A stretch of DNA of 40,656 nucleotides. Source: Litoreibacter sp. Its GTDB lineage: Bacteria; Pseudomonadota; Alphaproteobacteria; Rhodobacterales; Rhodobacteraceae. Positions 4,814 to 26,101 of this stretch are shown piece after piece. Both the position numbers and the translations under genes were made by a program. The first letter of the stretch is position 1. Each line of letters begins with the position of its first letter. Location: the NCBI GenBank assembly GCA_026710325.1, contig JAPORH010000017.1, positions 1 through 40,656 of the forward strand. Reading direction: 5' to 3'. The notes below the pieces were generated by a model. That model did no database searches. It saw only the letters and a list, made by a program, of their open reading frames with translations, and was not told the origin of the DNA.

Positions 4814-5932
4814 TCAACAAAACCGCTCAAGTAACCTCGACAGAAAGGCATCGCAGGTTTCGAGCTGTTCAGCCTCGATAGACTCGTCTGCTTTGTGCCC
4901 CTGCCCCGCCATTGAGCCTGGGCCGCAGACAAGCGTTGGCACGCCCATGTCGGACAAGACGCCGGCTTCGGTTCCAAAGGCGACCTTTGTCGGGCTTTGC
5001 GCCGCGATATTCTGAATTTCCCTGACCCAAGGCAGGGTCGCATCCACATCGAGGCCGGGGTAGCTATTGGTGCAAGACAGATCGACCTGTGCTGCGCCGC
5101 CACGGGTCGCCAGCGCCTCGATACGCGCGTAAAGCGCCTTTACATCCTGCGCGGCGAGAGAGCGCATCTCGAACTTCATTTCGGCCATTTCGGGAACTAT
5201 ATTGAGCGCGGTGCCGCCCGACAAAGTGCCTACATGCAAGGTTGTGTAGGGTACATCATAGCCGTCATCGAAAGGGCCGTCTTGCGCGATCTCGGATTGG
5301 AGCGCGCGCAACCCGGTGATGAAATCCGCGGCCAGATGCAACGCGTTTTGGAAGCGCGGGGCGAGCGCGGAGTGGCCCGCCTCACCGTGGAATATGGCCT
5401 TGTAGGCCGACTTGCCTTTGTGACCTGTCGCAATTTGCATTTCGGTCGGCTCGCCCACGATGCATAACGCAGGTGCTTTTAGAAGGGACGCAAGTTGGGA
5501 CTGGATCTGTTGCAACCCCACACAGCCAATCTCTTCATCATAGCTCAGGACAAGGGCGAGCGGGCGCTTCAACGAGGCGTTTTGCGTTTTGATCGCTAGG
5601 GCGAGCGCGCAAGCGACAAAGCCCTTCATATCTGTGGTACCACGCCCGAAAAATTTGCCGCCCTCTGATGTGAGCTTGAAGGGTGGTTTGCTCCAGTCCT
5701 GCCCCTCGACCGGGACCACATCAGTGTGGGCTGACAAAAGCAGACCGCCCGCGACCTCCGGCCCGATTTCTGCATAGAGACCCGCTTTCTCGCCGCAGGG
5801 GGATGGCAGGCGGGTCGTGCGGAAGCCGGCCTTTTTCAACAGTGCCTCGACAAAGTTGATCAGGGCTAAGTTGCTCCTATGACTGACCGTGTCGAAACCG
5901 ATCAGCTTTTCGAGGATGTCGAGCCGGTTCAC
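4814..5932 (-). CDS. argE: Acetylornithine deacetylase / M20 family metallo-amidohydrolase
   Basis: LLSAHTDVVPVEGQDW, FGRGTTDMKGFVACALA, SYDEEIGCVG, GHKGKSAYKAIFHGEAGHSA. GTG start overlaps the LysR stop codon (GTGA). Confidence 0.85.
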   Translation of the reverse strand: MNRLDILEKLIGFDTVSHRSNLALINFVEALLKKAGFRTTRLPSPCGEKAGLYAEIGPEVAGGLLLSAHTDVVPVEGQDWSKPPFKLTSEGGKFFGRGTTDMKGFVACALALAIKTQNASLKRPLALVLSYDEEIGCVGLQQIQSQLASLLKAPALCIVGEPTEMQIATGHKGKSAYKAIFHGEAGHSALAPRFQNALHLAADFITGLRALQSEIAQDGPFDDGYDVPYTTLHVGTLSGGTALNIVPEMAEMKFEMRSLAAQDVKALYARIEALATRGGAAQVDLSCTNSYPGLDVDATLPWVREIQNIAAQSPTKVAFGTEAGVLSDMGVPTLVCGPGSMAGQGHKADESIEAEQLETCDAFLSRLLERFC

Positions 5933-6831
5933 GGGTTCATCTCCGTGATGCAATGCTCCAGAAACGCTTTGCAAACCCGGCGGCGCAAAGACCCTTTGGC
6001 ACAAAGCACGCCCACGGGAATGGGCGGCACATCACTGATGAGCGGGACGAAGGTGAGGGGTTTTCCGTCAGGGGCATGCGTCCCGATGGGACGGTAATTT
6101 GCAATGGAATAGCCGAACCCATTGGCCACCAGACTGCGGGCCACGGCCATATCCTTGGTTCGCTCCGCGACGCGTGGTGACGCGCTGACCGCGTCGAAGA
6201 AGGACCGGAAGTAGTCAGAGCTGAGCGGCAGGTCGAGCAGTACCATTTCAAAAGGGGCAAGTTCGGCAACTGTCAGGCTCTCAGCCCCCGCCAAAGGATG
6301 ATCAGGGGCGAGCATCACGAAAGGCGGAAGCGTTTTTATCGGGTGAAACTCCAGATCATCGGGGATGTCGATGGCGTAGCTGAGGCCCAGGTCAATTTCA
6401 GCGCGCCGGATGGCTGCGAATATGTCGGGCTGGGTCAGCTCGGTCTGGCTGATGGAGACGCCAGGATGCGCGCCCTCGAAAATGCGGCGTAGGTCTGGCA
6501 CCACGATCTGCGCGAATGTCACCAGACAACCAAGCCTGAGCGGGCCTTGTACCGCGTCCGAGACGGTTCCGGCGAGCCGGGTCAGCTCAGTGGCCTCGGA
6601 CAAGACCTTTTTGGCCTGCGCGGCCAAGGTGCGACCCGCCTCGGTCAAAGAGAGGCCTTGGGCACGGTGACGCAAGAAAAGGGCAGTTCCGAGCTCGGCT
6701 TCCACTTGCGACAGTGCGGTCGAGATCGAAGCGGAGGAGACGTTCAGGACACGCCCAGCAGCAGCGATACTTCCGACCTCCGTGACGGCGGTAAAATACT
6801 CCAACTGTCTGAGTGTGAATCGCGTCTGCAT
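5929..6831 (-). CDS. LysR family transcriptional regulator
   Basis: N-terminal HTH TLRQLEYFTAVTEVGSIAAAGRVLNVSSASISTALSQVEAELGTALFLRHRAQGLSLTEAGRTL plus a substrate-binding domain. Confidence 0.93.
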   Translation of the reverse strand: MQTRFTLRQLEYFTAVTEVGSIAAAGRVLNVSSASISTALSQVEAELGTALFLRHRAQGLSLTEAGRTLAAQAKKVLSEATELTRLAGTVSDAVQGPLRLGCLVTFAQIVVPDLRRIFEGAHPGVSISQTELTQPDIFAAIRRAEIDLGLSYAIDIPDDLEFHPIKTLPPFVMLAPDHPLAGAESLTVAELAPFEMVLLDLPLSSDYFRSFFDAVSASPRVAERTKDMAVARSLVANGFGYSIANYRPIGTHAPDGKPLTFVPLISDVPPIPVGVLCAKGSLRRRVCKAFLEHCITEMNP

Positions 6832-6888
6832 GACCCGATGGTGGCCGAGCCCGGATGCGCGGTCAAACATGCCCGTCAGTTGTCCCTA

Positions 6889-7563
6889 TCAATCATCCCC
6901 GGGCACGCCGTAAGACGGGGCCTCCCGCGGGTCGATAGCTCGTTGAACATAAGCGTCGAGCTGCGGTTTGTAGACCTCCCAAGCCGTGGCGATGGCTTCA
7001 ATCGGGCAGTCCTCGGTCCAGTCGCAGCGCAGATCGGCCACGGGCCAAGGCACCCGGTCGACCAGCTTGAGCCCGGCCGAATGCACAGGGCCTGCTTCGC
7101 CCCCTGCCGCAAGACCCGCGCGCAAAGCAGCGATCAGCCGGTCGCCCAGATGGCCCGTGCTGTTTTTAAAGCCGTCCACAATGGCGGCAGGCACGTCCTC
7201 ATTTGCCAGGAGATTGCCGCCAGAGGCTACGTCCTCGCCCTGCGCTTGGGTCCAGATGCCAAGCGAATTGGGGCCAGAGTGAATGGCGGTGCTGCCCGCT
7301 TTGTCGATGGCCAGAACCTGCCGGTACTCGATGAATTTGCCAATGGATTGCACGCCCTGAATGGCCTCCGCCGCCGACATGCCGCCTTGCATCAAATCCA
7401 GCGCGAGGGGTCCGAGCGTGGGGTCCGTAACGTTCTGCGAGGCGACCGCGCCCACGCCTGCGCGCGCGTAAGAACAGCGTGCGGCCACAGCAGGGGAAGA
7501 GGATGAGATCGCAAGGCCAAACATCCCCGTCTCGGCACAGCGGGCCACGAGCGAGAAGGTCAT
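6889..7563 (-). CDS. DUF1028 domain-containing protein (putative Ntn-hydrolase-like)
   Basis: MTFSLVARCAETGMFGLAISSSSPAVAARCSYARAGVGAVASQNVTDPTLGPLALDLMQGG... Confidence 0.88.
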   Translation of the reverse strand: MTFSLVARCAETGMFGLAISSSSPAVAARCSYARAGVGAVASQNVTDPTLGPLALDLMQGGMSAAEAIQGVQSIGKFIEYRQVLAIDKAGSTAIHSGPNSLGIWTQAQGEDVASGGNLLANEDVPAAIVDGFKNSTGHLGDRLIAALRAGLAAGGEAGPVHSAGLKLVDRVPWPVADLRCDWTEDCPIEAIATAWEVYKPQLDAYVQRAIDPREAPSYGVPGDD

Positions 7564-7979
7564 GCCGGGATCACCGCGGTGCCGTCGATCTCCACAAGCC
7601 ATTCGGGCCGCGCGAGCGCTTGTACCACCAGTCCTGTCGAGACCGGATGCACGCCTTTGATATATTCGCCCATGGTGCGATAGACGGCCTCCCGGTGGCG
7701 GACATTAGTGATGTAGACGACGACTTTGACCAGATGGCTCATATCGCCGCCCACCTCCTCGATCAGCTGCTTGATGTTCTGCATCACCTTATGGGTCTGC
7801 TCGACCGGGTCATGGCTGTCGATATTGGCCGCATCATCCAGGTTTTGCGGGCATTGGCCGCGCAGCCAGACGATCTTGCCGCTGGCCTCGGTCACCACCG
7901 CCTGACAGAGATCATTGTCGAGGTTTTGTTCCGGATAGGTGTCGGAGGTGTTGAATTTGCGGATGCGGGTATGGGCCAT
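7560..7979 (-). CDS. RidA/YjgF family protein
   Basis: KIVWLRGQCPQNLDDAANIDSHDPVEQTHKVMQNIKQLIEEVGGDMSHLVKVVVYITNVRHREAVYRTMGEYIKG. ATGA overlap with the DUF1028 gene. Confidence 0.88.
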   Translation of the reverse strand: MAHTRIRKFNTSDTYPEQNLDNDLCQAVVTEASGKIVWLRGQCPQNLDDAANIDSHDPVEQTHKVMQNIKQLIEEVGGDMSHLVKVVVYITNVRHREAVYRTMGEYIKGVHPVSTGLVVQALARPEWLVEIDGTAVIPA

Positions 7980-7988
7980 GAGCTGTCC

Positions 7989-9092
7989 TTAAATGCGGTA
8001 TTGCGCTGCCAGCCATAGCTGAAAATCGCGGATCGTGCCTTCGTAATCGTCACCAGCAAGCGGGCCGGACAGCGCGTAATCTGATCCGAGAGCAACTTGC
8101 ATGCGTTCCAGCTTTTCGCGATCCTCCTGATTGACCTCCTCCCACAGTTTGACGCGGGCCGCGACGGTATCGGCGTCCAGATCATCGCCATAGGTCGAGA
8201 GCGTCCATTTTACGCGCACTTGGCCAGCGTTCAGCGGGAAGAGGAAGAGAGAGACGAGAAGGCTCGCCGCCTGGCTTGCGACCTGAGTGGGAAAAACTGA
8301 GAAAAGCGTGGACCTGAGCCGTTCATCTTCAGTCAGGTTTGGTGCGCCCAGCCCGCGTGACGGAATGTCCTTTGGGTAGTTCGCAGCGTAGGAGGTGAAG
8401 CCGTCGCCGCCTTCCAGCTTACGAGCGAGACCTGTGGGCGTGTAACTGTGCAGCGTTTCCGGATGGACGACCGAGAGGTGGTAGCCCTCCATGAAATTCT
8501 CGACCAGGCATTTCCAGTTTGTGTTCCAGACCTCCTCCGCGACATGCGCGATCTTGAAATCGGCGCTTTGGTAGTTGGCCAGAAGCTTATCGAGAGCGGG
8601 ATGGTCAAACGGCAGGGCGTCTGCGTCGAGGTTCACGTAGATGAACCCGTTCCAAAGCTGGATGTTGTGGCGGTGTAGGCTGCAATTTTTGGCGTCAAAG
8701 CCTGCGTTTTTCATGCGCGCCGCGCGCAAGAGACCACCGTCGAGGTCGTAGGCCCATGCGTGGTAGGAGCACACGAAACGCTTTGTGCTCCCCCTGCCCT
8801 CCGCCAGCGGCATGCCCCGGTGGCGACAGACATTGGCGAGGACCGCGATATCGCCATCTGTTTGTCTGACAACGATCAACGGCTCGTTTAGTACCTGCGC
8901 GGTGAAGAAGTCGCCCGCCTCACGAACCTCGTCCGCGCGACCAAGACAGTGCCAGCCGCGCCGCAAAACACCGGCTGCCTCCCGCTTGAACTGGTCTTCG
9001 CAGGTGTAAAACGCGCCGGGCATGGTCATGAGGCGGTCCGCGGGAAGGGCTGCCACCTGCTGCAATTGCGCGGAAAGCGTTTGCATGCTCAC
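7989..9092 (-). CDS. Aromatic ring-hydroxylating dioxygenase alpha-type subunit (Rieske), copy 1
   Basis: Rieske motif CRHRGMPLAEGRGSTKRFVCSYHAWAYDLDG. Mononuclear iron region NWKCLVENFMEGYHLSVVHPETL. Confidence 0.93.
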   Translation of the reverse strand: MSMQTLSAQLQQVAALPADRLMTMPGAFYTCEDQFKREAAGVLRRGWHCLGRADEVREAGDFFTAQVLNEPLIVVRQTDGDIAVLANVCRHRGMPLAEGRGSTKRFVCSYHAWAYDLDGGLLRAARMKNAGFDAKNCSLHRHNIQLWNGFIYVNLDADALPFDHPALDKLLANYQSADFKIAHVAEEVWNTNWKCLVENFMEGYHLSVVHPETLHSYTPTGLARKLEGGDGFTSYAANYPKDIPSRGLGAPNLTEDERLRSTLFSVFPTQVASQAASLLVSLFLFPLNAGQVRVKWTLSTYGDDLDADTVAARVKLWEEVNQEDREKLERMQVALGSDYALSGPLAGDDYEGTIRDFQLWLAAQYRI

Positions 9093-10255
9093 CCCTCGCC
9101 GAGACCAGCCGGAACGTAGGACGGATCCATCCGGCTCATCAGATATTGGGCGAAGTCAAAATTCGGGCGTTCCAGATGCGACAGATGACCCGGCTCCGCC
9201 CCATCAGCGGAAAGGCCGCGATAAACCTTCTCGGTGCAACCGCGATCCTCGACATTGACCTCGTCGAGGAGCGTTTTGAGGTCGAGCAGATTTTGCTGCG
9301 CCTCCGCGTCTTCTTTGTAGTCATCCGACATGCCCCCGCCAAAGCGGATTTGCACTTGACCGGGGCCTTGTGGATGCAGGCTGAGATACCAGAAATAGCC
9401 AGGCGTCAGAGTGATCAGAAGGCTGGGGTAGATCGCCAGCAGGAACGTCGTGCGCCGCTCATCGCCCATCAATCGGTCATTCTTGGGATGCGCCATCGCA
9501 ATACGCAGCGTCTCGTCTTTCAGGATCGTGTGGTAATTGAACGCCTTGCGCCCGGGTGGGCAGATCATCTCATCGAGCTTGGAAAGGCCGCCAATCGTGC
9601 CCGCGTGGCAGACCGGTAGGTGATAGCTTTCCATGAAATTCTCGGCGAGGACCTTCCAATTCGTGTCCCAAAGATGCTCTTCAAAAAACGTCTCGGTGTA
9701 GTTGGTCATGTCATAGCCTTTGACCAGCTCTTCGACCTCCTTCAGCTCTTCGGCCACGGGTGTGGCGTCGGGGTTCAGGGTGATGAAGACCCAGCCGAGC
9801 CATTCCTCGCAAGCGACATCGGGCAGGCTGTAATCGTCCTTGCAAAAGGCTGTGTTGCCATTCATCGCGGGTGCGCCGCGCAGGCTGCCATCGAGATTAT
9901 AGGTCCAGGCGTGATAAGGGCAGACGATGGTTTTCGCGTTGCCTCGGCCATGCAGCAGCGTCGACATACGGTGGCGGCAGACATTGGAGAAGGCCCGCAG
10001 CGCCCCATCCTTGTCGCGCAGCACGATCACAGGTTGGCCCGCCAGATCGCAGGTCACATAGTCACCGGGGTTTGCCAAAGCGCTGGCCCGCCCGACGCAG
10101 AACCAAGTTTTCTTGAAGATATGTTCCAGCTCCGCCGCGACGAAAGTCTCGGAGGTGTAGACCTCCGGCGGCATGGCGCGCGCCTGTTCGAACGGCACGG
10201 AGACGTTGGAGCGCAGCGTTTCGATCGGGTTTGGAATTGGCTTGGCGATGGTCAT
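9089..10255 (-). CDS. Aromatic ring-hydroxylating dioxygenase alpha-type subunit (Rieske), copy 2
   Basis: Rieske motif CRHRMSTLLHGRGNAKTIVCPYHAWTYNLDG. Iron-site region NWKVLAENFMESYHLPVCHAGTIGG. 4-bp overlap with copy 1. Confidence 0.93.
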   Translation of the reverse strand: MTIAKPIPNPIETLRSNVSVPFEQARAMPPEVYTSETFVAAELEHIFKKTWFCVGRASALANPGDYVTCDLAGQPVIVLRDKDGALRAFSNVCRHRMSTLLHGRGNAKTIVCPYHAWTYNLDGSLRGAPAMNGNTAFCKDDYSLPDVACEEWLGWVFITLNPDATPVAEELKEVEELVKGYDMTNYTETFFEEHLWDTNWKVLAENFMESYHLPVCHAGTIGGLSKLDEMICPPGRKAFNYHTILKDETLRIAMAHPKNDRLMGDERRTTFLLAIYPSLLITLTPGYFWYLSLHPQGPGQVQIRFGGGMSDDYKEDAEAQQNLLDLKTLLDEVNVEDRGCTEKVYRGLSADGAEPGHLSHLERPNFDFAQYLMSRMDPSYVPAGLGEG

Positions 10256-10271
10256 GATGCGGCTCCCAGTC

Positions 10272-11528
10272 TCAGGCGGATGCGGGGCGATAATCGCGGT
10301 AGTTGCGTTGGATCTCTATCTGGTCTGCGACATGTGCAGCGTCGTGCCAGACCCCCCAGATAAAGGTGGAGCCCCGGCGCGATTGCCATGGCAAGCCTAA
10401 AAAATAGAGCCCCGTCTCAGGCGAGACCCCGCGCTGATGGAGCGGTGCACCGGTTTGATCAAAGGCATGAGGCAGATCAATCCAGCTGAAATCCTGCCGG
10501 TAACCCGTCGACCAGATCACGGTTGTGATCCCGGCTGCGGCCAGATCAAGTTCCCGAATAGGATTGGTCAGACAATCTGGGTCGGCGGGCAGCACGTAAG
10601 CCTCAGGCTCCTCGGGCAGGTCGAGGCCAAACCGCTCGATATAGGCATCGGCCTGCGCCAGCATGTCGAGGTAATTGGCGTCGCCCGCCGCGATATTCTC
10701 CGCCAAATCACCATCGAACAAAAGCTTTCCGTCCTCGAAACCGGAAGCACGACCCAGAAGCGTCATACTCGCATGCGCGAGCCTGCGGAAATCAACCGTT
10801 TCGCCGCCCCGCGCGCCGCTGACCGAAATAGTGAGATGCTCAGTGCCCGGGGCTTTCGCGGCCAAATCCCAAAGACCTAAAACGCCGAGCCACCAGCAAT
10901 AGTCGCGGCCGCGATAGCTGCGCGGCGGGCGATCATGGGGGCCTACACATAGATAGACCTTGCGCCCGGCGCGTTGCAGCTCATCCGCGATCTGCCCGCC
11001 GGATGAGCCCGCACCCACCACAAGCACGGCACCTTCGGCCAACTGATGCGGGTTTCGGTAGCTGGCAGAATGGATTTGCGCCACCCCTGCGGTTTCGGGG
11101 ATGAAATCGGGAAAGACCGGCGTCTGGAATGCGCCCGTGGCGGACACGATGTTTTGCGCCTCGATCGTACCCTCAGATGTGTCGACCAAAAAACCGGACC
11201 GACCCGCCGCGCGTCGTGCTTGTTTGACCTCGACCCCGGTGCGGATTGGCGCGTCATGGGTTTCGGCGAAGCTTTGCAAAGTGTCAGCAACTTCATCCTT
11301 GCCCGGAAACCCCTCGGGGCCCGTGTTTGGAAAACTCATGCCCGGAAAGCAGTCATGCCAAGCGGGGCCGTTGGCCACGAGCGAGTCCCAGCGGCGCGAC
11401 CGCCAGCTTTCTGCGATACGGTCCCGCTCCAGAACAAGATGCGGGATCCCGCGCCGCGTCAGATGCGCGCTCGCAGCAATTCCCGCCTGCCCGGCGCCGA
11501 CGACGAGTGTATCTATGGTTTCGCTCAA
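10272..11528 (-). CDS. Flavin-containing monooxygenase-like NAD(P)/FAD-binding protein
   Basis: DTLVVGAGQAGIAASAHLTRRGIPHLVLERDRIAESWRSRRWDSL and VLVVGAGSSGGQIADELQRAGRKVYL. TTG start inferred from AAGGAG 8 nt upstream. Confidence 0.85.
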   Translation of the reverse strand: MSETIDTLVVGAGQAGIAASAHLTRRGIPHLVLERDRIAESWRSRRWDSLVANGPAWHDCFPGMSFPNTGPEGFPGKDEVADTLQSFAETHDAPIRTGVEVKQARRAAGRSGFLVDTSEGTIEAQNIVSATGAFQTPVFPDFIPETAGVAQIHSASYRNPHQLAEGAVLVVGAGSSGGQIADELQRAGRKVYLCVGPHDRPPRSYRGRDYCWWLGVLGLWDLAAKAPGTEHLTISVSGARGGETVDFRRLAHASMTLLGRASGFEDGKLLFDGDLAENIAAGDANYLDMLAQADAYIERFGLDLPEEPEAYVLPADPDCLTNPIRELDLAAAGITTVIWSTGYRQDFSWIDLPHAFDQTGAPLHQRGVSPETGLYFLGLPWQSRRGSTFIWGVWHDAAHVADQIEIQRNYRDYRPASA

Positions 11529-11602: not shown

Positions 11603-11623
11603 GCGTTAGGCAAAGCCTAACGC
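11603..11623. promoter_or_regulatory. Perfect palindrome, candidate LysR-type operator for the FMO-Rieske operon
   Basis: GCGTTAGGC-AAA-GCCTAACGC. It contains TAGGCAAAGCCTA (T-N11-A) about 75 bp upstream of the first gene of the operon. No U-tract on either strand. Confidence 0.6.
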
Positions 11624-11637
11624 TGGTGGCACTCGAT

Positions 11638-12066
11638 TCAAATGACTTCCCGAAGGAGCGGGCAGGTCGCCGAATTTGAAACGCCGGGGATTTCACGGAT
11701 GCGGTTAAGGACCGCATCGAAATCGGACAAAGTGGATGTCTCAAGTTGGATGACCATATCCCAGACGCCACAGGTGCGATGCAGACGCACCACTTCGCTC
11801 ATACGTTTTAGCGCCTTTTCAACGCTCGCTGCCGCATTGCCGCGCACCTCGATCATCATCATGGCGTGGACTCGCTCGCGCGTTTCGACCTCCCCCAACT
11901 CGACCGTGAAGCGTTTGATGGCGCGGGTTTCGGTCAAACGTGAAAGGCGGTTTTGCACGGTACCGCGCGCCAGCTTCAATTGCCCAGCGAGGGTCGTGAC
12001 AGAAGCGCGCGCATCGAGCGTGAGCGCGTCGATGAGCTTTCTGTCGATATCGTCCAGTTCGATCAT
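11638..12066 (-). CDS. Lrp/AsnC family transcriptional regulator
   Basis: LDDIDRKLIDALTLDARASVTTLAGQLKLARGTVQNRLSRLTETRAIKRFTV. Divergent from arginase. Confidence 0.93.
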   Translation of the reverse strand: MIELDDIDRKLIDALTLDARASVTTLAGQLKLARGTVQNRLSRLTETRAIKRFTVELGEVETRERVHAMMMIEVRGNAAASVEKALKRMSEVVRLHRTCGVWDMVIQLETSTLSDFDAVLNRIREIPGVSNSATCPLLREVI

Positions 12067-12094
12067 TTTGATTTTTTGACCTCATCTTTCTGAG

Positions 12095-12149
12095 CAAAAT
12101 TATCAACGATCAATCAATTTTGAAAGAGACTGATCAAAATGAGCATCAG
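12095..12149. promoter_or_regulatory. Divergent AsnC/arginase regulatory region with inverted repeats
   Basis: CAAAATT(12095-12101)...AATTTTG(12116-12122) and CTGAT(12130-12134)...ATCAG(12145-12149). Confidence 0.4.
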
Positions 12150-12175
12150 ATATTACCTTCAAAGGAAGGCTACAG

Positions 12176-13111
12176 ATGCAAAAACACTGCTCGATACTTG
12201 GAATACCCGTTGAATCAGGCGCCGGGCGGCGCGGCTGCATGATGGGCCCGGACGCTATGCGCACCGCAGGCCTTGCGGAGACGCTGGACAGCTTGGGCTA
12301 TGTTGTTGAGGACCTCGGCAATTTGGTGCCACCGCAGGACATCGTAGACGTCAAAGGGCCCGCACATCTGGTCCGGCTCAGCGAAACGGTGGCTTGGACC
12401 CAAACCATTCACGACGCGGCCTATGCGCTAAGTCAAAAAGAGACATGCCCGATCTTTGTCGGCGGGGATCACTCGATGGCGGCCGGTACGCTGACGGCAA
12501 TGAGCCGCCTCGCCGCCGAGCAATCCCGCCCGCTTTTTGTCCTCTGGCTTGATGCGCATCCGGATATGAACACGTTGAGCTCGACCGTGTCGGGTCACCT
12601 GCACGGTACACCCGTGGCCTACGCCATGGGGCAGGACGGATTTGACGGCATCTTTCCACCTGTGGATCACCCGCTCGACCCCGCGAAACTATGCATGATT
12701 GGCCTGCGCTCGATTGACCCGCCAGAACAGAAGCTGATCGGAGAGCTCGGCGTCGACGTTTGGGATATGCGTCGGATTGATGAGGGCGGTGTAAAGGGTG
12801 CCATCATCGACCTGTTGGAACGCGTAAACGCGGCGGATGGCTTGCTGCATGTCAGCTTCGATGTCGACTTTCTGGACCCCAGCATTGCCCCTGCGGTTGG
12901 CACGACTGTGCCGGGTGGTGCTACCTTTCGGGAGGCCCATCTGATCATGGAACTGCTCGCTGATAGCGGGCGTGTCACCTCCCTCGAACTCACCGAGCTT
13001 AACCCGTTTCTCGACACGAGCGGCAAGACCGCAGACCTGATGACTGATCTGACCGCGTCGCTGTTTGGCAAACGCGTGCTCGACCGCCCAACTGCTAGGA
13101 GCGCCGCATGA
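12176..13111 (+). CDS. rocF: Arginase
   Basis: GGDHSMAAGTL, LWLDAHPDMNT, SGHLHGTPVAYAMG, LLHVSFDVDFLDPSIAPAVGTTVPGG. Confidence 0.93.
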   Translation: MQKHCSILGIPVESGAGRRGCMMGPDAMRTAGLAETLDSLGYVVEDLGNLVPPQDIVDVKGPAHLVRLSETVAWTQTIHDAAYALSQKETCPIFVGGDHSMAAGTLTAMSRLAAEQSRPLFVLWLDAHPDMNTLSSTVSGHLHGTPVAYAMGQDGFDGIFPPVDHPLDPAKLCMIGLRSIDPPEQKLIGELGVDVWDMRRIDEGGVKGAIIDLLERVNAADGLLHVSFDVDFLDPSIAPAVGTTVPGGATFREAHLIMELLADSGRVTSLELTELNPFLDTSGKTADLMTDLTASLFGKRVLDRPTARSAA

Positions 13112-14157
13112 CCCCTCCCTCCGCACTTGCCCTTGTACCCTTCGTCAGCGTCGCCAACATGATGCGGCTGATCCACGCCATTGGCCCGCGCAGTGCGGTG
13201 GCCGATATGGTTGGCTATATCGAGGAAGACTTTCGACGCTGGAAACAGTTTGACAAAACCCCGCGCGTGGCCGCGCATTCCGAGGAAGGCGTGATTGAGC
13301 TTATGCCCACGGCCAATGACGAGCTTTATGGGTTCAAATATGTCAACGGCCACCCCGCCAATATGAAACGAGGCTACCAGACCGTGACGGCTTTTGGCGT
13401 CTTATCCAAAGTAGCCACCGGCTACCCCGTGTTGTTGACCGAGATGACGCTTCTGACCGCACTTCGCACTGCGGCGACATCCGCTATGGCCGCGAAATAT
13501 CTTGCGCCCGAAGGTGCCACTGTCATGGCGATGATCGGCAATGGGGCTCAGTGCGAATTTCAGGCCTTGGCTATGGCCGAGATTTGCGGGATCAAGACGG
13601 TGCGGCTTTACGATATCGATCCTAGCGCGACTGAAAAGTCGGCTACGAATTTGCAGGGCCAAGGGCTAGACGTCATTAGCTGCGCCACGCCAGAAGAGGC
13701 CATCGCAGGCGCGCAGATCATCACCACCTGCACAGCCGATAAACGCAATGCGACGGTGCTGACGGACAATATGGTCGGCGCGGGCGTCCATATTAACGCC
13801 ATTGGCGGCGACTGCCCCGGCAAGACCGAGCTGCACCCGGATATCTTGCATCGTTCCGACATCTTTGTGGAGTTTCCGGACCAAACCTGGATTGAAGGTG
13901 AAATTCAGGTGTTGGACCGCGATCATCCGATTACCGAGCTTTGGCGCGTGATTTCGGGGGAAAAATCGGGGCGCGAAAACGCAAACCAAATCACGCTATT
14001 CGACAGTGTCGGCTTCGCAATGGAGGATTTTTCGGCGCTCCGCTACATCCGCGACCAATTGGACAAGCATCCCTATTTTGACGAGTTGGATATGCTGGCC
14101 GACCCTGATGAGCCGCGCGATCTGTTTGGGATGCTGCAGCGCTCCTCCGCTGCATGA
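13108..14157 (+). CDS. Ornithine cyclodeaminase
   Basis: NGHPANMKRGYQTVTAFGVLSKVATGYPVLLTEMTLLTALRTAATSAMAAKYLAPEGATVMAMIGNGAQ. ATGA overlap with arginase. Confidence 0.93.
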   Translation: MTPPSALALVPFVSVANMMRLIHAIGPRSAVADMVGYIEEDFRRWKQFDKTPRVAAHSEEGVIELMPTANDELYGFKYVNGHPANMKRGYQTVTAFGVLSKVATGYPVLLTEMTLLTALRTAATSAMAAKYLAPEGATVMAMIGNGAQCEFQALAMAEICGIKTVRLYDIDPSATEKSATNLQGQGLDVISCATPEEAIAGAQIITTCTADKRNATVLTDNMVGAGVHINAIGGDCPGKTELHPDILHRSDIFVEFPDQTWIEGEIQVLDRDHPITELWRVISGEKSGRENANQITLFDSVGFAMEDFSALRYIRDQLDKHPYFDELDMLADPDEPRDLFGMLQRSSAA

Positions 14158-22733: not shown

Positions 22734-25700
22734 CTATCCCGCCGCCTCTGCCAGTAGCTGCGCGTTGCCGCCTGCAGCGGTTGTATCTATGCAGACATGG
22801 CGCTCGGAGATGACATCGGCCGCGCTCGGTTGGCCCGTGATAAGGGGAAGGATAGGACCCTCGCGCAGCGCCAAGGCCTGCCTGATGGACCGGGTGGTGC
22901 CATCGTCGCCCCACCAGATCACGCCGCCAAAATTATCGCGTTTGGTCCAGTCATCGAGCGCTCCAACCACAGCCTGACCACCCGCAGCAACTATTGCCTT
23001 TTCCTGCGCTTCTTTATCAGGGCCCAGGCATAGGATCGGAGCACGGGGAGAGATGGAAAGGCGGTTGCTCTCCCCGGTTGGCCCCGGCAAGACATGATCA
23101 GTCAGCGCCGGCGAAGGTGCGTCTGCTTGCAGGAACTTCATCAGGTAGTGTGGACCACCCGCCTTGGGCCCCGTGCCCGACAACCCCTCCCCGCCAAAGG
23201 GTTGGGAGCCGACGATCGCGCCGATCTGGTTGCGGTTGACGTAGATATTTCCGGCATGAACCTGATCCACAACTTCTTGGACACGGTCATCAATGCGGCT
23301 GTGCAACCCGAAGGTCAGGCCGTAACCGGTGGCGTTGATATCAGCGATCACCTGCTGGTGCGTCTCAGCCCTGAAACTCGCGATGTGCAGCACGGGGCCG
23401 AAAATCTCCTCTTTCATTTCTTCGATATCATTCACGCGGATTAGGGTCGGCGTTGCGAAATTGCCCTTTGCATCGGGGGGCGTTTCAAACATCACGCGGC
23501 CCTCCGCGCGAGCGCGCTCAATGTGAATTGCGATCTTGTCCCGCGCAGGCGCGTCGATGATCGGGCCGATATCTGTTTCCATATCCCACGGATCACCCAC
23601 CCGCAGCTCGGCCATGGCGCCGGTCAGCATCTCTATCAGATCATCTGCGATGTCTTCCTGCACATAGAGGCATCTGAGCGCAGAACAGCGTTGGCCTGCG
23701 GACTGGAAGGCGGAGGCCACAATATCGCGAACGGCTTGTTCGGGAAGCGCCGTGCTGTCAACGATCATCGCATTGAGCCCGCCGGTCTCCGCAATCAGCG
23801 GCGCTTTGGCGTTGCCGTGGCGCGCAAGCGTGTCATGTATGCGTTTCGCAGTCGCTGTCGAGCCGGTGAAACACACGCCATCAATCCTGGGGCTCGCTGT
23901 CAGCGCAGCTCCAACCGCACCGCCGCCGGGCAGCAGTTGCAAGGCCGATTTCGGCACGCCAGCCTCATGCAGCAGCCGCGTGGCCAGCGCGGCAATCGCG
24001 GGGGTTTGTTCCGCCGGTTTGGCCAGAACCGCATTCCCGGTTGCGAGCGCTGCCGCGATCTGGCCTGTGAAAATGGCCAAAGGAAAGTTCCAGGGCGAAA
24101 TGCAAGTAAAGACGCCGCGCGCCCTGCCCTGCTGTTTTGGAGCCTCGTCAGCATAATAGCGCAAGAAATCCACCGCTTCGCGAAGTTCACCTATTGTATC
24201 GAGCGTCGTCTTCCCCGCCTCTTTGGCCAATATCGCAAAGATCTCACCATGATGCGCTTCATAGAGGTCCGCCGCTTTGCGCAAGACTGTTGCGCGTTGC
24301 TTCACGTTAGCATCCCACGGGGTGGCATCCGCCAACGCACCCTCGATTTCTTCCTCGGACGCTGGCGCGACTTTCAAGTCAGTCTGCGCGAATGGAGCTC
24401 GCGCCGCCTCAATTTCAGTCATATCCACCGGGTCGTTCCAATCCCATCCGCGCGAGTTCTCGCGCGCGCCGAAAACCCGCGACGGGTGGCAAACTGCGGG
24501 CAACGTTAGCCCGTCAATTTGATCGAACGGGTCGGCGGCCACGGTCTCGGCCGGAACCTCCTCATCCACGATCTGGTTCACGAAAGAGGAGTTTGCGCCA
24601 TTTTCCAGAAGTCTGCGCACCAAATAGGCCAGAAGATCGCGATGCGCGCCGACTGGGGCGTAGATACGGCAACGCGCGCCGCTGCCGTCCATGACAAGAT
24701 CGTGCAGCCGTTCGCCCATGCCGTGCAGGCGCTGGAACTCAAACGCGCTCATGTCATCAGCCATATGCAAGATAGCCGCGACCGTATGCGCGTTATGGGT
24801 GGCGAATTGTGGGTAGATGCGGTCAGTCATCCCAAGCAGCTTTCGCGCATTCGCGATGTAGCTGATATCTGTGGCTTGCTTATGCGTGAAGACAGGAAAT
24901 CCTGAGAGCCCCATGACTTGCGCGCGCTTGATCTCGGTATCCCAATAAGCGCCTTTGACGAGCCGGACCATGATCTTTCGGTCCAACTCTTCTGCCAGCT
25001 TGTAGAGCCAGTCGATCACATGGCCTGCGCGGAAGCCGTAAGCCTGAACGACGACCCCAAACCCGTCCCAGCCTGCGAGCCCTTCATCCCGAAGCGTCGC
25101 CTCAATCACGTCGAGCGACAGGTCCAGCCGGTCGGCCTCTTCCGCGTCGATGTTAAGCCCCACCCCGGCCTCGGCGGCTTGCCCGCAAAGTTCAAGCAGG
25201 CGCGGTTGCAACACCTCCATCACGCCGCGCTTTTGCGGTGTCTCATAGCGCGGATAGAGCGCGGAAAGCTTGACGGAGATCCCGGGATTTTCGCGGATAT
25301 CTGATTTATTGGTGCGGCGCGCGATGGCATTAATCGCATGGGTGTAGCTGTCAAAATAGGCGCGGGCGTCTACCTCAGTCTTCGCGGCCTCGCCCAGCAT
25401 GTCATAGCTATAACTGTACCCCTGCTCCTCCTGGGTGGTGCCGCGCTGCATTGCGCCCTCGATCGTCTCGCCCAGCACGAATTGGCGCCCCATCTCTTTC
25501 ATGGCGCGCGCAGTGGCGGCCCGGATCACAGGCTCCCCCAGCCGCTTGACCATGGAATGGATTTGCCCCGCGATCCCTGGGCTGTCCTCGGCCAAAACCT
25601 TGCCCGTTAGCATCAACCCCCATGTTGAGGCATTGACGAGGGAGGAAGCCGATTTGCCCAGATGCGTCCCCCAATCGGACGGCGCGATCTTGTCTTCGAT

Positions 25701-25988
25701 CAAGGCATCCATCGTCTCGGCATCAGGCACGCGCAACAAAGCTTCGGCCAAACACATGAGGGCGACGCCCTCATCCGTGTTGAGCCCGTATTCGGCGAGG
25801 AAGACTTCCATCAGGCCGGGTTTGGCCGAGCTGCGTATGTCGCGGACGAGTTGAGCGGCGTGGTTCGAGATGCTTTTTCGGTCTTCACTGGTGAGCCGAG
25901 ACGCTTGGATCAGGCGCGCGAGCGTAGCAGCCTCGTCAGGTGCGGTATTGGCTCGTATTTGGGACCGGTAGGAAACGAGATCGGACAT
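22734..25988 (-). CDS. putA: Bifunctional proline dehydrogenase / L-glutamate gamma-semialdehyde dehydrogenase
   Basis: PRODH region (VRLVKGAYWDTEIKRAQ, FATHNAHTVAAI, YAPVGAHRDLLAYLVRRLLENGANSSFV). ALDH region (CISPWNFPLAIFTGQIAAALATGNAV, SAGQRCSALRCLYVQ, GGEGLSGTGPKAGGPHYL). Confidence 0.97.
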   Translation of the reverse strand: MSDLVSYRSQIRANTAPDEAATLARLIQASRLTSEDRKSISNHAAQLVRDIRSSAKPGLMEVFLAEYGLNTDEGVALMCLAEALLRVPDAETMDALIEDKIAPSDWGTHLGKSASSLVNASTWGLMLTGKVLAEDSPGIAGQIHSMVKRLGEPVIRAATARAMKEMGRQFVLGETIEGAMQRGTTQEEQGYSYSYDMLGEAAKTEVDARAYFDSYTHAINAIARRTNKSDIRENPGISVKLSALYPRYETPQKRGVMEVLQPRLLELCGQAAEAGVGLNIDAEEADRLDLSLDVIEATLRDEGLAGWDGFGVVVQAYGFRAGHVIDWLYKLAEELDRKIMVRLVKGAYWDTEIKRAQVMGLSGFPVFTHKQATDISYIANARKLLGMTDRIYPQFATHNAHTVAAILHMADDMSAFEFQRLHGMGERLHDLVMDGSGARCRIYAPVGAHRDLLAYLVRRLLENGANSSFVNQIVDEEVPAETVAADPFDQIDGLTLPAVCHPSRVFGARENSRGWDWNDPVDMTEIEAARAPFAQTDLKVAPASEEEIEGALADATPWDANVKQRATVLRKAADLYEAHHGEIFAILAKEAGKTTLDTIGELREAVDFLRYYADEAPKQQGRARGVFTCISPWNFPLAIFTGQIAAALATGNAVLAKPAEQTPAIAALATRLLHEAGVPKSALQLLPGGGAVGAALTASPRIDGVCFTGSTATAKRIHDTLARHGNAKAPLIAETGGLNAMIVDSTALPEQAVRDIVASAFQSAGQRCSALRCLYVQEDIADDLIEMLTGAMAELRVGDPWDMETDIGPIIDAPARDKIAIHIERARAEGRVMFETPPDAKGNFATPTLIRVNDIEEMKEEIFGPVLHIASFRAETHQQVIADINATGYGLTFGLHSRIDDRVQEVVDQVHAGNIYVNRNQIGAIVGSQPFGGEGLSGTGPKAGGPHYLMKFLQADAPSPALTDHVLPGPTGESNRLSISPRAPILCLGPDKEAQEKAIVAAGGQAVVGALDDWTKRDNFGGVIWWGDDGTTRSIRQALALREGPILPLITGQPSAADVISERHVCIDTTAAGGNAQLLAEAAG

Positions 25989-26101
25989 AGCGAATAACCT
26001 ATGCAAAGGGGTTTTGTTTGACTTTATCCGTTTCTCAGTTCTATTTTTCGCCAGTTTTCAAAAATATGCAGCCTAAATCTCCATAGAAAGGGCGCCAGGA
26101 A

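Follow-up and report, generated by a model that had tools for sequence, protein, structure and literature searches.

A probable hin-type imidazole-4-acetate operon in Litoreibacter with two Rieske oxygenases as likely feeder enzymes

The DNA analysed here is a 40,656-nucleotide stretch of a Litoreibacter sp. genome (contig JAPORH010000017.1, hereafter the window), in which seven intact minus-strand genes form one tight unit with short intergenic gaps at positions 4814-11528. They encode, in order, a flavoprotein monooxygenase (FMO), two Rieske oxygenase alpha subunits (RO1 and RO2), a RidA-family protein, a DUF1028 protein, a LysR-type regulator and an M20 deacylase. We consider it probable that the unit is an operon for degradation of imidazole-4-acetate (ImAA, the acid derived from histamine) under its own LysR protein, in which the two Rieske oxygenases, whose genes lie between hinF and hinL, act as feeder enzymes, perhaps as N-demethylases. 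The operon is thus read as a variant of the known hin pathway, with the RO1/RO2 module as its new part.

In Pseudomonas, the hinFLHG genes (PA5393-PA5390 in P. aeruginosa) convert ImAA to aspartate, and the LysR protein HinK senses ImAA (PMC8231116). HinF is a FAD-monooxygenase (EC 1.14.13.5), HinL an enamine deaminase, HinH an amidase, and HinG an amidase assigned to EC 3.5.1.8 (PMC6467879); the P. putida Hin proteins are AWA45227-AWA45230. The FMO, RidA, DUF1028, and M20 genes of the window are of the same types and stand in the same order as hinF-L-H-G, and the LysR gene resembles hinK. The same four-gene set without Rieske genes is found in Ideonella, Mycolicibacterium and Klebsiella plasmids. 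Orthologous operons in relatives also hold genes for a histamine dehydrogenase (HDH; 1211 bits to PDB 6de6) and an aldehyde dehydrogenase. Co-occurrence was evaluated across 150 genera of the same family, with orthologues called at ≥66% identity for HDH and ≥59% identity for RO2. The FMO is present in 53 of these genera, and all 26 genomes with an HDH orthologue also carry it (Fisher p = 1e-14). Because every HDH genome carries the FMO and the gene order matches hinFLHG, we assign the ring-opening core with high confidence to an ImAA degradation pathway of the hinFLHG kind.

The distribution of the Rieske genes is nested within that of the core. Of the 150 genera, 41 have RO1, and in 37 of these the FMO is present as well (p = 4e-18), with less than 400 bp between the two genes in 22. 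RO2 was found in 14 genera, each of which has both RO1 and the FMO. Such nesting would be expected of a series in which RO2 supplies RO1 and RO1 in turn supplies the core. The FMO-RO1-RO2 arrangement is intact in seven genomes, the window's included, all within one FMO clade, and is therefore no product of chance; one member of the clade (G117) has a second FMO beside an HDH gene. At one locus (L150), a single operon reads FMO-RO1-RO2-RidA-DUF1028-LysR-HDH-M20. In Burkholderiales, RO1 adjoins the core and a polyamine-type ATP-binding cassette (ABC) transporter, with no dehydrogenase. We regard it as likely that RO1 and RO2 are feeder enzymes of the ImAA pathway.

The features of the operon and its predicted control site are as follows.

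10272..11528, minus strand: FMO, TTG start, Pyr_redox_3/FMO-like
9089..10255, minus strand: RO1, Rieske oxygenase alpha subunit, CntA/GbcA-like, with Rieske and iron-site motifs
7989..9092, minus strand: RO2, second Rieske oxygenase alpha subunit, GTG start at 9092, alternative in-frame ATG at 9086
7560..7979, minus strand: Rid-family protein, putative HinL equivalent (PF01042)
6889..7563, minus strand: DUF1028 protein, putative HinH equivalent (PF06267, 206 bits)
5929..6870, minus strand: LysR-type regulator, HinK-like (PF00126/PF03466), alternative ATG start at 6831
4814..5932, minus strand: M20 deacylase, putative HinG equivalent, automatically named argE (PF01546/PF07687; NF005710)
11606..11620, no strand: inverted repeat TTAGGCTTTGCCTAA, predicted operator of the HinK-like LysR protein, TTAG/CTAA kept in relatives

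The repeat, TTAGGC-N3-GCCTAA, lies at 11606-11620 in the intergenic stretch upstream of the FMO gene, and its TTAG and CTAA halves are invariant in 7/7 close relatives. The window's 4.19-Mb genome holds this single perfect copy and no second one. Across 1.8 Mb of collected loci, the relaxed pattern TTAG-N7-CTAA was observed 58 times, at 52 non-redundant sites, whereas shuffled sequences gave 5.8, and 49 of the 52 non-redundant sites stand just upstream of hin-type genes: FMO (19), RO1 (11), HDH (5), LysR (4), HpaB (4), ABC ATPase (3), M20 (2), and RidA (1). RO1 has the box even where FMO, RidA, and DUF1028 genes are not its neighbours (L038, L047, L052). The shared box places RO1 in the hin regulon, and this evidence is both strong and independent of proximity. 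The LysR protein finds its best solved match in 6m5f (155 bits), which we take to be HinK. We infer that the LysR protein binds the TTAGGC-N3-GCCTAA box, through which it would control transcription, probably in response to ImAA.

Both Rieske proteins are complete, as a preliminary description of this DNA from its sequence had claimed. Each contains CxH...CxxH and NW...ENFMExYHxxxxH, followed by a conserved Asp; the ligands are C93/H95/C112/H115 (Rieske) and H212/H217/D337 (iron site) in RO1, and C89/H91/C108/H111 and H205/H210/D324 in RO2. A bridging Glu stands at the CntA position in both. The nearest solved structure to RO1 by sequence is CntA, and a predicted RO1 model (predicted local distance difference test, pLDDT, 92) matches CntA best, then stachydrine demethylase and 3n0q, which together make up its best 18 PDB fold matches, with aromatic-ring dioxygenases behind. 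In both sequence and fold, the closest relatives of the two Rieskes are the quaternary-ammonium oxygenases CntA and Stc2. Their scores of 153 and 151 bits against the curated GbcA model NF058607 fall short of its cut-off (670 bits), and the two proteins are relatives of GbcA and not GbcA itself. Two more GbcA/CntA-like Rieske genes, with 151 and 145 bits to the same model, are found elsewhere in the window genome (C230 and C111; L031 and L032), each sharing its stretch with an aldehyde dehydrogenase gene.

The seven-gene operon contains no ferredoxin or reductase gene, which confirms an absence already remarked on in the preliminary description. Only two FAD_binding_6 proteins are encoded in the window genome, one of them GbcB-like and located beside a GbcA-like gene on another contig; no Rieske reductase was found among the annotated recurrent neighbours of the operon in relatives. 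Given these two observations, the missing reductase is unremarkable. The GbcB-like protein is the only clear candidate in the genome for an electron donor, and RO1 and RO2 would draw their electrons from such a shared GbcB-type reductase.

In the pathway proposed here, RO1 and RO2 would act before HinF, demethylating an imidazole-acetate or histamine-type compound that is methylated on nitrogen; RO1 would yield ImAA, and RO2 would work one step further upstream. The FMO, a candidate HinF-type imidazoleacetate 4-monooxygenase (EC 1.14.13.5), would then oxygenate the imidazole ring of ImAA; the enzyme activities of this core route are taken from work on P. putida U and P. aeruginosa. The DUF1028 protein, matched to HinH by its gene position, would act as an N-terminal-threonine amidase and open imidazolone-acetate to N-formimino-aspartate. 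Its Thr2 is invariant in 60/60 sequences, as expected of N-terminal nucleophile hydrolases, and it is probably a member of that class that opens the imidazolone-acetate ring. The Rid protein, in the place of HinL, would remove the formimino nitrogen, and the M20 protein, a candidate N-formylaspartate deformylase equivalent to HinG, would deformylate N-formylaspartate to aspartate. The M20 conserved residues H69, D101, E133, E134, E161, and H346 include those of the metal site.

As the chemistry of the Rieskes themselves, N-demethylation is our tentative choice, with a little less than even chances. The presence of RO1 and RO2 near a GcvT-like demethylase gene on Parasedimentitalea marina pW43C counts in its favour, and candidate substrates are N-methylimidazole-acetates, N-methylhistamines, and marine imidazolium betaines. 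In a more specific and rather speculative version, RO2 and RO1 would be successive N-demethylases of a marine imidazolium betaine, for example zooanemonin, or of N-methylimidazole-acetates, RO2 taking the dimethyl compound to the monomethyl one and RO1 that to ImAA, which the hin core would degrade to aspartate. If true, this would be, to our knowledge, the first bacterial route for imidazolium betaines. Zooanemonin has been reported from sponges and Anemonia; judging by its name and by norzooanemonin, a 4-carboxylate imidazolium betaine (structure in PMC11342128), it would be 1,3-dimethylimidazolium-4-acetate.

Several observations weigh against the proposed pathway. The window's own genome has no HDH, no transporter gene adjoins the operon, and the orthology of the core to the Hin proteins is drawn from family, gene order, and co-occurrence. 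The Rid protein has Ser at the position of the catalytic Arg105 of E. coli RidA, as do 47/59 relatives; its lack of this residue makes its step uncertain, and the ‘RidA family’ label may mislead on the chemistry of hin-operon Rid proteins. The M20 protein exceeds the cut-offs of NCBI's acetylornithine deacetylase models (TIGR01892, 333 over 298 bits; NF005710, 456 over 412 bits). Since argE is the automatic name of hin-type M20 genes throughout, these models fail to separate HinG from ArgE. The Rieskes are only ~25% identical to CntA, too low for assigning a reaction, so that their chemistry has to be inferred. Four genomes hold RO1 without this HinF-type FMO, and some RO1 genes are solitary among mixed, unrelated neighbours that give no clue to a substrate.

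With the same ImAA core retained, RO2 or RO1 could cleave a C-N bond in the manner of CntA. N,N,N-trimethylhistamine, N,N-dimethylhistamine or hercynine would then lose a methylated amine, leaving imidazole acetaldehyde or imidazole pyruvate for oxidation to ImAA. CntA, which has the closest solved structure, splits carnitine at its C-N bond, and among the loci examined RO2 and HDH share a locus only once, as if RO2 replaced the amine-removing step. However, an aldehyde product requires an aldehyde dehydrogenase, absent from both the window operon and the burkholderial RO1 clusters, and the L150 operon has RO1, RO2, and HDH together; we judge C-N cleavage unlikely. A strict mutual exclusion of RO2 and HDH, seen in the first loci, was abandoned, being broken by L150 and by genomes with both. 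Somewhat less likely again is that RO1, instead of demethylating, hydroxylates the ring of ImAA or of a ring-substituted analogue, as a second enzyme that aids or replaces HinF. The oxygenases around the core do vary (Rieske, HpaB), and RO1 adjoins RidA and DUF1028 genes in stretches without an FMO (L051, L054, L061, L092). Yet HinF is also present in 37/41 RO1 genomes, RO1 is closer to quaternary-ammonium than to aromatic-ring oxygenases, and the Pseudomonas pathway needs no Rieske gene (PMC8231116).

The preliminary description had suggested the homABCDER operon for catabolism of homarine (N-methylpicolinate). An N-heterocycle, oxygenases of methylated-amine type, and marine Rhodobacterales would suit that compound, and a part for Mgd in homarine catabolism has been reported (PMC13390433). 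Gene content speaks against it: FMO-RidA-DUF1028-M20 corresponds to hinFLHG, orthologous operons carry HDH, and the FMO is in 26/26 HDH genomes. The homarine operon was set aside on these grounds as very improbable. The broader suggestion of one pathway opening an N-heterocycle to an amino acid holds in outline, and N-methyl groups may plausibly be involved. On the present evidence the heterocycle and the end product are those of the hin match, imidazole-4-acetate and aspartate, and not those of a picolinate-to-glutamate route. A stachydrine/N-methylproline reading, prompted by an old yellow enzyme-type 690-aa protein in relatives, was dropped because that protein turned out to be the HDH.

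The gene calls and domain matches bear out the seven packed minus-strand genes of the preliminary description, and two of its three 4-bp overlaps (RidA/DUF1028 and LysR/M20) are certain. The third, RO1/RO2, hinges on the RO2 GTG start at 9092; if translation began at the ATG at 9086, the two genes would be 2 bp apart. A tRNA-Leu gene on the opposite strand bounds the 3′ end of the operon. Upstream of the operon, an Lrp/AsnC gene with divergent arginase and ornithine cyclodeaminase genes (11638-14157) forms an ordinary arginine-to-proline module, with PutA encoded at 22734-26006; save for weak or distant matches, the three upstream genes are not operon companions in relatives.

Rieske loci elsewhere show further combinations. 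In P. marina, RO1-RO2 on pW43C (L126, 12001-23670) stands beside an amino-acid ABC transporter and two CrtO-like FAD oxidoreductases, in a locus that also encodes an HDH-like protein and the GcvT-like demethylase; the hin core is on pW43B. Formaldehyde- or formate-handling genes were considered as a demethylation signature and discarded, as two cases (the GcvT-like gene on pW43C and a formate dehydrogenase by RO1-RO2 in L038) are too few. In five loci (L065, L071, L081, L091, L094), RO1 is accompanied by a glutamine-synthetase-like enzyme, a class-III aminotransferase, and an unannotated 240-280-aa protein, which suggests a gamma-glutamylation branch.

The hin core itself also varies. In L078 (11134-12303), and also in L056, L074, L093, and L099, a flavin reductase domain is fused to a LysR substrate-binding domain, mostly adjoining an HpaB-type monooxygenase gene. 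No hinF was seen in these five stretches, so HpaB with a ligand-gated reductase may replace HinF there. Clusters resembling hinFLHG are common on enterobacterial plasmids, with 105 Klebsiella records having a DUF1028 match. One on a Klebsiella variicola plasmid (L162) comes with a glucose-methanol-choline (GMC) oxidoreductase, an aldehyde dehydrogenase, and a cytosine permease, suggesting that an imidazole alcohol feeds this cluster. On an E. coli plasmid (L161), RidA-DUF1028-argE adjoins an insertion sequence (IS) element and has no annotated FMO.

These analyses give a substrate class to genes automatically annotated as ‘NAD(P)/FAD-dependent oxidoreductase’, ‘SRPBCC family protein’, ‘DUF1028’, and ‘argE’, a hin-type group that roughly one third of the sampled related genera carry and that also occurs on plasmids from several phyla. 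They suggest that its DUF1028 proteins are amidases acting on the imidazolone ring, and supply a predicted operator and regulon for hin-type genes. The modules that feed the ImAA core appear to be interchangeable: histamine dehydrogenase or Rieske enzymes, with HpaB or alcohol oxidase as further possibilities. Should the Rieskes indeed be demethylases, the marine fate of methylated histamines and imidazolium betaines becomes a question.

Among known systems, hinFLHG with hinK of P. putida U and P. aeruginosa shares with the window a FAD-monooxygenase, an enamine-deaminase-type protein, two amidases, the F-L-H-G order, and a LysR regulator. Unlike it, the window has two Rieskes between hinF and hinL, carries its LysR gene within the operon (between hinH and hinG), and lacks a nearby histamine aminotransferase, aldehyde dehydrogenase, and permease. 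CntA and GbcA share with the Rieskes a single-chain alpha subunit, Rieske and iron motifs, the bridging Glu, and the best fold match, but the Rieskes differ in sequence (~25% identity to CntA), in having no reductase gene alongside, and in their association with hin genes. Stc2 stachydrine demethylase (3vca, 4qup), which N-demethylates a betaine, is the second-best fold match, at 22-23% identity and in a different gene neighbourhood. Finally, Rhodobacterales HDH operons (e.g., Parasedimentitalea pW43B, L123) have the core genes and regulator in common with the window, but there HDH and aldehyde dehydrogenase (plus HpaB) supply the core, a place taken in the window by RO1-RO2.

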